DNA from: Anaerofustis stercorihominis
GTDB taxonomy: Bacteria; Bacillota; Clostridia; Eubacteriales; Anaerofustaceae
Assembly (NCBI GenBank): GCA_015058295.1
Contig: SVCP01000008.1
Span: 1 to 54,691, forward strand
Direction: 5' to 3'
DNA: 54,691 nt
In this document: positions 21,362 to 47,782 of the stretch, in pieces
Numbering within the stretch: the stretch's first letter is position 1
Layout: each line of letters starts with the position of its first letter
The notes under the pieces: generated by a model
Told to the model about the DNA's origin: nothing
The model's input: the letters and a program-made list of their open reading frames with translations, nothing else
Databases searched by the model: none
Program-made: the position numbers and the translations under genes

Positions 21362-21462
21362 GCGCCGCAGGCGCAACCAAAGCAAAGCATCAGCTTTGCT
21401 TTGGTTGCCGGCCCGGAAGCTTCGCTTCCGGGCCGCTGCCGGAGGCAGCGGGCCTGCGGCGC
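21362..21462. repeat. Three-arm palindromic element, copy A
   Basis: An 11-bp outer stem (21362-21372 with 21452-21462) encloses three hairpins. The first is 16 bp (21373-21388 with 21393-21408, loop ATCA), the second 12 bp (21409-21420 with 21424-21435, loop TTC), and the third 5-6 bp (21436-21440 with 21444-21448, loop GGA). All pairs are Watson-Crick. It is intergenic, between convergent genes, and shares the outer stem core CCGCAGGC with copies B and C. Confidence 0.85.
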
Positions 21463-23038: not shown

Positions 23039-23176
23039 ATCCACTCATATCCAAACTTCCCCCGAAGCGAACGACATCTGATGAGCTAAAGTTTCCGACT
23101 CAGCCGAAGCCTTACGGTAGCGAGAGAGCTGTTGCGGATGTTAACCGCATTCCTTTTACTCATTGTTTGATTGTGC
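23014..23176 (-). ncRNA. Candidate small structured RNA, about 160 nt
   Basis: A perfect TTGACA/TATAAT promoter just upstream predicts a start near 23176. The RNA has a TGCGG/CCGCA hairpin near its 5' end (about 23130-23147), an ACCG...UCGG helix with a UUCG loop (about 23094-23118), and two interleaved pairings (AAACUU with AAGUUU, CUCAU with AUGAG) that could form a pseudoknot at about 23043-23092. It ends at a hairpin followed by seven T residues, with a second terminator 20 bases on. No ORF of note lies inside. I cannot match it to 6S, SRP, tmRNA or a known riboswitch. Confidence 0.6.
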
Positions 23177-23180
23177 TTAT

Positions 23181-23209
23181 ATTATATCAGCGCATGGTAT
23201 ATTTGTCAA
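23181..23209 (-). promoter_or_regulatory. Consensus promoter of the RNA region
   Basis: On the minus strand: perfect TTGACA (23209-23204), 17-base spacer and perfect TATAAT (23186-23181). Confidence 0.9.
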
Positions 23210-30774: not shown

Positions 30775-30885
30775 GCCCCGCCGCAGGCGGAAGCAGCAGC
30801 GCTGCTTCCTGCTCAAAGGCGGAGCCTTTGAGTGCGAAAAAGCAAAGTTCAATGAACTTTGCTTTTTCGCTGCCTGCGGCGGGGC
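30775..30885. repeat. Three-arm palindromic element, copy B
   Basis: A 14-bp perfect outer stem (30775-30788 with 30872-30885) encloses three hairpins. Arm 1 is 9 bp (30789-30797 with 30801-30809), arm 2 is 9 bp (30812-30820 with 30824-30832, loop GGA), and arm 3 is 17 bp (30834-30850 with 30854-30870). It begins 34 bases after the dxr stop. The outer stem and arm 2 are identical to copy C. Confidence 0.9.
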
Positions 30886-30990
30886 GGACTATATAAAACT
30901 TACACGATATAAGGATTTCATAAGTATTTATCATAATTTAATAAAAAATATTTTTGCTGTGGTAAAATATTTATGAGGAGAGTATGTTTT

Positions 30991-32424
30991 ATGAATGGAA
31001 AAAGTAAACTGCATGAACATATGATATGTATGATTTCCGTAATCGGTATAGTCGTCGTGGCAACAATTCTTTCTTCGGGACTGTCAAAACTTGGTGTGGA
31101 AGATGATAATCTTATTATGCTTTATCTTATCGCCGTGCTTCTGAGTACCGTCGTGAGTAAAGGATATATTGCTTACGGATTAATAACAGCAGTTCTGGGA
31201 TTATTGTCTTTTAACTATTTCTTTACATATCCGTTATTTACTATGATGGTGTATGATGTGCAGGATCTCATCATGCTGGGATTTTTCTTCATCACAGCTC
31301 TTATAGGTGGTGTCATGACATCAAAATACAAGCATCAGAGCACAATCGCCAAACAGAATGAACTTACTGCGCAACTGATGTATGAGATAACGGAGAGTTT
31401 TGTAAACCTTACGGGTGTTGACGACATAGTTGATAATGCCATGAATTTTATTACGGACCACACGGGATATTATTGTGAAGTAACGCTCGGAGACAAGGTT
31501 TATTCGCCTGAATGGACAGAATACCGTCCGTCGGTCAAATGTTATGTCCTTCCCATAAACGGAAGAACGACCAGGCTCGGTCTTATAAAGCTTTACACAG
31601 ACGAAAGGTCTGTCATGGAAGATGATGACAAACTGATAAGTGCCGTTGTATATCAGATGGGACTTGTTCTGGACAGGGAATCAATCTATACGGAAAGAGA
31701 AAAAATAAAGCTCGAAATGGAATCGGAGCATCTGAAGAGTACTCTTCTTCGGAGTATTTCCCATGATCTGAGGACACCGCTTACAGGAATTCTCGGTGCG
31801 GGAACGCTTATCGTTGAAAATTTTTATGAACTTGAAGATGATGAGATAATCCGGCTTGCAGGTGACATAATGGAGCAATCGGAATGGCTAATAATGACTG
31901 TGCAGAATATCCTCAATATGACGAGGGTGAATGATAAATCGTTTGCTTTGCGCCGTGAACTGGAGACAGTCGATGATCTGATGAGTCAGGCGGTGATGAG
32001 AATATCCCGTGTTTATCCTTCTCAGGCAAAGGAAATGCTGAAAGTGAAGTTTCCGGGGGATCTGCTGTTTGTGAATGTTGATGCGCAGATGTTCGAGCAG
32101 GTACTTATAAATCTTCTTGACAATGCATTTAAACATTCGGTTAGTTGTTCCTATATATTATTTACAGCATACAAAGATGGGAAAAATATTGTTTTTGAAG
32201 TCAGTGATGACGGTGAAGGTATTGATGAGAGTATTATAGACACATTGTTTGACGGATTTGTTACATTGCAGAGCAAGACATCAGACAAGGGCAGAGGAGT
32301 CGGCCTCGGTTTGTCAATATGCCGTGCTATTGTCAACGCTCACGATGGAGTTATAACTGCCGGCAACAAACCCGAAGGCGGAGCACTTTTCAGAGTAGTA
32401 TTGCCATGTGAGGAGGAATCATAA
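30991..32424 (+). CDS. KdpD-like sensor histidine kinase lacking the KdpD sensor domain
   Basis: This 477-residue kinase has a DUF4118-type four-helix membrane domain (to about residue 105), a GAF-like linker (about 130-230), HisKA with phospho-acceptor His258 in SISHDLRTPLTGI, and HATPase with DNAFKHS and GVGLGLSICRAIV. The DUF4118 plus kinase core is the C-terminal half of KdpD. The N-terminal KdpD ATP-binding and Usp domains are missing. No kdpFABC genes are nearby. The start at 30991 has GAGGAG 9 bases upstream. It overlaps the regulator gene by one base. Confidence 0.88.
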   Translation: MNGKSKLHEHMICMISVIGIVVVATILSSGLSKLGVEDDNLIMLYLIAVLLSTVVSKGYIAYGLITAVLGLLSFNYFFTYPLFTMMVYDVQDLIMLGFFFITALIGGVMTSKYKHQSTIAKQNELTAQLMYEITESFVNLTGVDDIVDNAMNFITDHTGYYCEVTLGDKVYSPEWTEYRPSVKCYVLPINGRTTRLGLIKLYTDERSVMEDDDKLISAVVYQMGLVLDRESIYTEREKIKLEMESEHLKSTLLRSISHDLRTPLTGILGAGTLIVENFYELEDDEIIRLAGDIMEQSEWLIMTVQNILNMTRVNDKSFALRRELETVDDLMSQAVMRISRVYPSQAKEMLKVKFPGDLLFVNVDAQMFEQVLINLLDNAFKHSVSCSYILFTAYKDGKNIVFEVSDDGEGIDESIIDTLFDGFVTLQSKTSDKGRGVGLGLSICRAIVNAHDGVITAGNKPEGGALFRVVLPCEEES

Positions 32425-33134
32425 TGAAAGACAATATACATATTTTGCTTATCGAAGATGACAACAAAATTTCAAATTTTATGTCCCTGGCACTAAGAGC
32501 AAAGGATTACAAGGTCAGCATTGCGGAAAGCGGAAAGAAAGGAATACTTGAATTCTGTACAGGCAATCCGGATATAATTGTTCTTGATCTGGGACTTCCC
32601 GATATGGACGGAAATGAAATTATCGAAGAAATAAGAAAGATATCTGAAATCCCTATTCTTGTTGTTTCTGCCCGTGAAATGGAAAGTGATAAGATACTTG
32701 CACTTGACAGCGGTGCCAATGATTATGTAACAAAGCCATTTGCTATGGGCGAGTTTCTCGCAAGGATCAGGGTTATGGAAAGATTTGTCGGAGTTGAAAC
32801 GAAAAATTCTGCAGACAGCACCCCTGTAAGCATTTATGAATTCGGAGAGTTGACAGTAGATACTGACAGACAGAGAATATTTCTCCGCGGGGAGGAAATT
32901 CATCTGACTCCGCTTGAATATAAGCTTCTCGTTTTTCTTGTGGAAAATTGCGGAAAGGTGGTCACATATTCTCAGATAAACAAGCAGGTATGGGGATATG
33001 AACACATGGGAGATGTCAAGACCATAAGGGTGTGTCTTGCAAATCTTCGCAGAAAAATAGAGAAGGATCCGTCTAATCCGGAATATATTTTCACAAAGAT
33101 AGGTGTCGGGTATCGTTTTGCTGATATGGAATAG
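32424..33134 (+). CDS. KdpE-like OmpR/PhoB-family response regulator
   Basis: This 236-residue regulator has a receiver domain with the acidic pair at residues 11-13, phospho-acceptor Asp55 in VLDLGLPDMDG, Lys104 in VTKPF, and a C-terminal winged helix (ELTVDTDRQRIFLRGEEIHLTPLEYKLL, ending GVGYRFADME). It pairs with the kinase by a TAATG overlap. KdpE-like regulators control potassium uptake in the classic system, but the target here is unknown because no kdp operon is in view. A three-arm element starts 18 bases after the stop. Confidence 0.92.
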   Translation: MKDNIHILLIEDDNKISNFMSLALRAKDYKVSIAESGKKGILEFCTGNPDIIVLDLGLPDMDGNEIIEEIRKISEIPILVVSAREMESDKILALDSGANDYVTKPFAMGEFLARIRVMERFVGVETKNSADSTPVSIYEFGELTVDTDRQRIFLRGEEIHLTPLEYKLLVFLVENCGKVVTYSQINKQVWGYEHMGDVKTIRVCLANLRRKIEKDPSNPEYIFTKIGVGYRFADME

Positions 33135-33151
33135 AGTTGTTTATAGCCAGT

Positions 33152-33259
33152 GCCCCGCCGCAGGCGGAAGCCGCCCTTGCGGCTTCCTGCTCAAAGGCGG
33201 AGCCTTTGAGTGCATGAGCCGAAGTCGGAGACTTCGGCTCATGCTGCCTGCGGCGGGGC
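33152..33259. repeat. Three-arm palindromic element, copy C
   Basis: A 14-bp perfect outer stem (33152-33165 with 33246-33259) identical to copy B encloses three hairpins. Arm 1 is 9 bp (33166-33174 with 33179-33187), arm 2 is 9 bp and identical to B (33190-33198 with 33202-33210), and arm 3 is 15 bp (33212-33226 with 33230-33244, loop GGA). Arm 3 shares no sequence with arm 3 of B beyond the closing GC. Confidence 0.9.
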
Positions 33260-47221: not shown

Positions 47222-47782
47222 ATGGAAGACAACAGTATCATTCAGCTGTATCTGGACAGAAATGAATCTGCAATAACCGAAACAGACAGAAAATACAAAG
47301 AATACCTGTTCAGAATATCCTATAACATACTCTCTCATTCAGAGGACAGCCTTGAGTGCGTAAATGATACATATTTCAGGGCATGGAACAGTATTCCTCC
47401 GCAGATACCTCATAAATTATCCGCATTTCTCGGGAAGATAACCAGAAACCTTTCTCTTGACCGTTACAGAAAAGTGAACGCATCAAGAAGAATTCCCGAC
47501 AATATAACCGTATCGCTTGATGAACTGAGCGAATGTATTCCCGATGCAAGCGATACATCAAAAGTTGTCGATGATATGCACCTTACACAGATACTCAATG
47601 ATTTTCTTTTGGGACTGAAAAAGCGGGACAGAGTGGTCTTTGTGAAAAAGTACTGGTATCTTTGTTCCGTAAAAGATATTGCAGTGGAAATGAAAATCAG
47701 CGAAGCTTCCGTAAAAATGAGCCTTCTCAGATCGAGAAATGCTCTCAGAAATACACTTTCAAAGGAGGGCATATGTTTATGA
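47222..47782 (+). CDS. ECF-type RNA polymerase sigma factor
   Basis: This 186-residue sigma factor has region 2 (YLFRISYNILSHSEDSLECVNDTYFRAWNS, with the LGKITRNLSLDRYRK helix) and region 4 (LCSVKDIAVEMKISEASVKMSLLRSRNALR). The start at 47222 has AAAGGAGG 5-7 bases upstream; the open frame above lacks homology. It overlaps the next gene by 10 bases. The next product has a membrane helix, so this is a sigma/anti-sigma type pair. Confidence 0.88.
   Translation: MEDNSIIQLYLDRNESAITETDRKYKEYLFRISYNILSHSEDSLECVNDTYFRAWNSIPPQIPHKLSAFLGKITRNLSLDRYRKVNASRRIPDNITVSLDELSECIPDASDTSKVVDDMHLTQILNDFLLGLKKRDRVVFVKKYWYLCSVKDIAVEMKISEASVKMSLLRSRNALRNTLSKEGICL

Follow-up and report, generated by a model that had tools for sequence, protein, structure and literature searches.

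The analysed stretch of DNA, hereafter referred to as the window, is a 54,691-nucleotide contig (SVCP01000008.1; assembly GCA_015058295.1) of the gut bacterium Anaerofustis stercorihominis. It contains a KdpD-like sensor kinase gene and an OmpR-type response regulator gene, flanked on either side by a short intergenic palindrome (hereafter referred to as elements B and C). Each of these elements consists of a 14-bp closing stem (GCCCCGCCGCAGGC / GCCTGCGGCGGGGC) around three hairpins (arms 1 to 3). A third element (element A), with the same architecture, lies upstream in the window. B starts 34 bp after the stop of the dxr gene, C starts 18 bp after a response-regulator gene and A starts 14 bp after an AAA ATPase gene. 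The features identified were as follows:

21362..21462 (+), element A, same three-arm architecture, with closing stem GCGCCGCAGGC / GCCTGCGGCGC
30775..30788 (+), element B, closing stem, 5' side (GCCCCGCCGCAGGC), 100% complementary to 30872-30885
30789..30809 (+), element B, arm 1, GGAAGCAGC-AGC-GCTGCTTCC
30812..30832 (+), element B, arm 2, of the semi-conserved type, CTCAAAGGC-GGA-GCCTTTGAG, identical in C
30834..30870 (+), element B, arm 3, 17 bp with perfect pairing (30834-30850 with 30854-30870) and an AAT loop
30872..30885 (+), element B, closing stem, 3' side
30973..33134 (+), KdpD-like sensor kinase (DUF4118, HisKA, HATPase_c) and OmpR-type response regulator
33152..33165 (+), element C, closing stem, 5' side
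33166..33187 (+), element C, arm 1, GGAAGCCGC-CCTT-GCGGCTTCC, with one compensated pair and a new loop relative to B
33190..33210 (+), element C, arm 2, identical to B
33212..33244 (+), element C, arm 3, 15 bp with perfect pairing (33212-33226 with 33230-33244) and a GGA loop (a C-GNA-G triloop)
33246..33259 (+), element C, closing stem, 3' side

Comparison of elements B and C

The initial annotation reported that B and C are almost identical outside arm 3, whereas arm 3 is unrelated in sequence but free of mismatches in both copies, and this observation was confirmed. The two arm 3 sequences were no more alike than shuffles (P = 0.30). Arm 3 is, however, not quite the only difference, as one A-T pair of arm 1 in B is a C-G pair in C and the loop of this arm also differs (AGC in B, CCTT in C). 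No unpaired difference separates the two copies outside the loops and arm 3, and they share no sequence beyond the closing stem, so the copied unit is the closed cloverleaf. This structure is not due to chance: folded as single-stranded DNA, B and C had z-scores of -11.5 and -13.3 against dinucleotide shuffles, with values of about -11 to -15 on either strand.

We investigated whether arm 3 of C, or of B, might have been received from another copy, as the initial annotation had proposed modular exchange of arms, or their replacement by a templated palindrome-forming process such as foldback synthesis, to account for a change that point mutation with compensation cannot easily produce. Whole-genome searches with both arm 3 sequences found only the arms themselves and, for B arm 3, hits with one mismatch were no more frequent than for the reversed control pattern. 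B arm 3 does resemble arm 1 of element A (AAAGCAAAG, P = 0.01). Across the genome, the outer arms share more contiguous identity than shuffles, but only 12 pairs share 7 or more contiguous bases, against about 1.8 expected. Some pairs of elements have one arm in common but not the others (L007/L027, L025/L047 and L036/L044, where L numbers denote loci, and the elements on contigs C22 and C58 of the sister species described below). Nevertheless, most outer arms are unique, and shared arms often share only their outer or only their inner part, which fits segmental rewriting better than the movement of whole cassettes. These data constitute weak evidence for occasional exchange and do not explain B and C, and the exchange of interchangeable cassettes by recombination is therefore considered unlikely. 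A search for donor sequences elsewhere yielded a single 16-nt exact match, too little to build on, between a long arm (GGCAGGAGATAAAATC, L022 arm 1) and DNA on another contig (C23; L129:19678-19693), outside any element, which may reflect chance or capture.

A family of three-hairpin palindromes in two species

A structure-only scan, using no sequence motif, identified 28 chains of three or more adjacent hairpins in 752 kb of this genome, against none in three Markov-simulated copies of the same DNA. Of these 28 chains, 24 have the CCGCAGG/CCTGCGG closing stem, and at least two of the others are weak AT-rich chains. Pattern searches gave about 26 copies in the whole genome. The copies are intergenic and lie just downstream of genes, and several follow an intrinsic terminator in the same orientation. 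The closing stem (10-14 bp) and the core of arm 2 (AAAGGC or AGAAGC next to the loop) are semi-conserved, whereas arms 1 and 3 are almost all different. The conserved flank TTTTGTATATGTG was considered as a possible part of the element, but was found not to be specific. Another repeat family (L008, L010, L013, L018, L019 and L022) shares the CGCCGCAGGCGG word (AAAGCCCGCCGCAGGCGGCAGCGCGACGCGCAGCGTCGCAAGAAAAGGGTGGGCGGGTGGG), and its G-rich tail resembles the outer stems of the sister-species elements.

The only other genome of this genus returned (hereafter referred to as G001, the sister species) contains more than 20 elements of the same architecture, with other closing stems (CGCGCCGC/GCGGCGCG, CCGT/ACGG), and two three-arm units often stand in tandem within an outer C-rich/G-rich stem. 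A genome of another genus (G007) has a few similar elements. In a wider search of 120 relatives with a model of the element, matches at E ≤ 1e-4 were found only in this genus, and G007 had two matches at E < 1e-3 under laxer filters. A search of 84,980 species contigs gave only the sister species as a true case, the other five hits not being three-arm elements, and no element was found in viral contigs. Element A and the element at L044 each have an element at the matching place in G001, but with different stems and arms, suggesting either independent insertion or complete turnover. In particular, element A and a G001 element (L190:18633-18697) both lie just downstream of the same Clp-protease-like gene, yet share neither closing stem nor arms. 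The possibility that palindromic reads or near-identical repeats generated the perfect arms, or the inversion described below, during assembly cannot be dismissed outright, because both genomes are draft assemblies (91 and 80 contigs) and elements occur at some contig ends. It is, however, very unlikely, as the architecture is found in two species and in a third genome of another genus, each with different arms, and the unique arms of each copy would guide assembly.

We then considered whether the elements correspond to known mobile or repeated DNA. Like prokaryotic MITEs (PMC10969869), they are short (about 110 bp), non-coding and multicopy, with terminal inverted repeats of 10-14 bp, but no target duplication of 3 bp or more was found in 24 copies, no parent transposon was identified in a non-exhaustive search, and the internal sequence is not conserved. 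Like REP/REPIN elements with RAYT transposases (PMC3116915, PMC3733652), they are intergenic hairpin repeats in a bacterium carrying a RAYT-like gene. However, REPs are conserved in sequence and tagged with GTAG or CGTC, whereas the outer arms of these elements are nearly all different and a tag or its complement lay within 8 nt in only 4 of 24 copies, at no fixed position. The RAYT-like gene (L149:4449-5366 and L150:8515-8827; weak Y1_Tnp match) is conserved in both species, but its HUH motif is replaced (YCILPDRANFLI; HVH is absent) and no element lies within about 4 kb of it in G001; it possibly encodes a repurposed protein. No dedicated transposase was found, as only this degenerate gene and IS200-like fragments were detected, the strong Y1 matches in this genome being limited to fragments at the ends of contigs C62 and C32. 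A T-rich flank, on the left side only, was observed in many copies, and two pairs of closely related copies lie 1.4 and 2.4 kb apart. Two near-identical three-arm elements 1.4 kb apart (L051:2221-3755) flank a serine recombinase gene (PF00239) and an unknown 145-aa gene. Together with the lack of target duplication and the presence of the RAYT-like gene, the T-rich flank and the two pairs of closely related copies leave room for a mobile single-stranded DNA element of the IS200/IS605 or RAYT type, the arms of which would be re-formed at each insertion, but this explanation remains doubtful, given the loss of the HUH motif and the absence of tags. Mitochondrial GC clusters and double-hairpin elements (PMC4478555) are also short GC-rich palindromic units spreading within a genome, with fast sequence change and the merging and shuffling of hairpins, but the elements described here are located on a bacterial chromosome and have a fixed number of three arms within a closing stem and perfect pairing of hypervariable arms. 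REPINs, bacterial MITEs and mitochondrial GC clusters were the nearest relatives in kind in the open-access literature searched (subscription papers excluded), in which we found nothing describing three-arm elements with variable paired arms.

Pairing, loops and gene order

The arms are almost purely Watson-Crick (1,761 of 1,778 pairs). The elements parsed in this genome, together with three elements of G001 and G007, contain 870 Watson-Crick, five G-T, one A-C and six other pairs, and the 100 parsed arms of G001 contain 891 Watson-Crick, one G-T, no A-C and four other pairs. Detection favours Watson-Crick arms, although the elements were first found by their closing stem. An Infernal alignment of 41 distinct rows (both strands of 21 loci) had 478 cells changed on both sides and about four changed on one side (about 100 to 1), whereas slid controls gave 71-116 two-sided cells. 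This alignment is fitted to the model, so its absolute counts lean towards the structure, but the near absence of one-sided G-U changes does not depend on this fitting. Some mismatches nevertheless persist: a local pair of copies on contig C82, which also share no sequence beyond the closing stem, have a T-T mismatch in common and carry two recent unpaired changes, so correction is neither instant nor complete.

Extreme covariation of this kind, and the position of the elements downstream of genes and terminators, might indicate an RNA element (a terminator, 3' end stabiliser or small RNA) with arms covarying by ordinary compensatory mutation under selection. We therefore compared the arms, refolded as RNA, with 99 intrinsic terminators of the same genome folded in the same way. 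G-U pairs accounted for 97 of 988 pairs (9.8%) in the terminators, with a loop mode of 4 nt, but for only 8 of 1,632 pairs (0.5%) in the arms, with a loop mode of 3 nt (Fisher P = 3e-33). The arms therefore do not behave like RNA helices under selection. Both strands fold equally well, the loops are DNA-type triloops in both orientations rather than typical RNA tetraloops, and upstream terminators would keep several elements largely untranscribed. No Rfam family reached its threshold (best match 23.7 bits, threshold 42); elsewhere in the window, a cobalamin riboswitch match on the minus strand (23067-23195) was also below threshold (22.8 bits, threshold 31.5). A function as RNA is thus considered unlikely.

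INTERMEDIATES. In G001, four copies of one unit are identical in the stems of arms 1 and 3, and each differs from the arm 2 consensus GCCGGAGGC by exactly one paired substitution at a different position, one of them a transversion pair, with no unpaired cell. Gradual paired substitution between the two arm 3 sequences had been named beforehand as evidence that would refute the initial interpretation. Such steps exist in the family, so this refuting condition is fulfilled at the level of the family, but they do not bridge B arm 3 and C arm 3, for which no intermediate was found. In these four copies, the loops appear as reverse complements of each other in every arm (GAA/TTC, TCC/GGA, TCT/AGA and GGAT/ATCC), and the C82 pair has TGC and GCA loops. 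Random loops never gave so many reverse-complement pairs in 20,000 trials, but loops drawn from the observed pool did so in 5% (P = 0.05), suggesting that convergence on stable loops explains part, but probably not all, of this pattern. Of the 3-nt loops, 60 of 79 in G001 and 23 of 55 in this genome are GNA or its complement TNC, usually closed by C-G, against 12.5% for random triloops, and 21 of 67 and 8 of 48 in other hairpins of the same two genomes. The mini-hairpin d(GCGAAGC) has been described as extraordinarily stable (cited in PMC6582339).

The kinase-regulator pair lying between B and C is inverted in G001 (contig C30), where no element is present, such that the elements lie at both breakpoints in this genome only. 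In the reverse case, a block of G001 (C15:43239-47340) is inverted relative to this genome and is bounded, in G001 only, by two similar six-arm elements in direct orientation (L156; C15:43013-43156 and 47450-47550). Of 86 comparable gene junctions, 8 of 12 rearranged ones had an element at the breakpoint in one genome, against 5 of 74 collinear ones; with operon-like junctions removed, these values were 8 of 13 and 5 of 37 (P = 0.0017). These junctions are not independent, the eight deriving from about four or five rearrangements, and both assemblies are drafts, so this association is a strong lead rather than proof.

Template switching as a possible origin of the variable arms

Overall, the interpretation in the initial annotation was partly supported: independent drift plus compensation at all sites is a poor account of a change in arm 3 without change in the rest of the element, and a templated palindrome-forming process fits the family-wide data, but modular exchange was not supported. 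The analysis itself establishes the recurrence of the cloverleaf, with its closing stem and three hairpins with tight loops, mostly of 3 nt, in about 26 copies in this genome and more than 20 elements of the sister species, and the coexistence of outer arms nearly all different in sequence with an almost complete lack of mismatches and G-U pairs. The remainder of our interpretation is inferred. In the explanation that we favour (probability of about 0.6), the arms are rewritten at the DNA level by template switching, with a polymerase copying one half of a hairpin jumping to the other half, or to the sister strand, and copying back. In one event, this would make the halves exact complements, turn substitutions or indels into paired changes, and potentially invert the loop. 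Short events would give single paired changes, whereas long or repeated events would give a wholly new arm, as between B and C; the sharp contrast between arm 3 and the unchanged rest of these two copies argues for few events. Selection or mechanism may also favour single-stranded folding stability, because many triloops are of the very stable C-GNA-G type. In this view, mobility is likewise inferred: elements would be copied within the genome exactly up to the closing stem, by a route and an enzyme as yet unidentified, and they seem to promote local inversions because any two copies can pair as inverted repeats.

Template switching between the halves of an inverted repeat has been described as making the arms identical and inverting the spacer (PMC8604942), and has been proposed as the source of perfect stems, multi-base compensatory changes and loop inversions in RNA genes (PMC8794818). 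It would explain the pure Watson-Crick pairing, the paired changes without intermediates, the transversion pairs and the loop flips observed here, and the GAA/TTC loop swaps are the same as those reported in yeast. However, the mechanism is inferred from copies within one genome per species, and paired changes could also result from strong selection plus compensation. In the systems described previously, the process is seen in scattered single hairpins, whereas here a dispersed three-arm family keeps only its fold while nearly all outer-arm sequence turns over. A more speculative possibility, considered unlikely on present evidence but not excluded, is that these elements constitute a class of bacterial mobile DNA in which the inherited unit is a single-strand fold, three hairpins in a closing stem, rather than a sequence. 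Their arms would be re-templated from themselves during replication or transposition, and the elements would act as general inversion points, because any two copies can pair in either orientation.

Compensatory evolution of helices is normally read as selection on RNA. The family described here provides a dense natural data set in which arms covary almost perfectly with almost no G-U pairs, so covariation alone does not prove RNA function. It makes the maintenance of palindromes by template switching testable in one genome, with loop inversion as an internal marker, and the link to inversions of a kinase-regulator pair and of a second block suggests that such palindromes shape local gene order.
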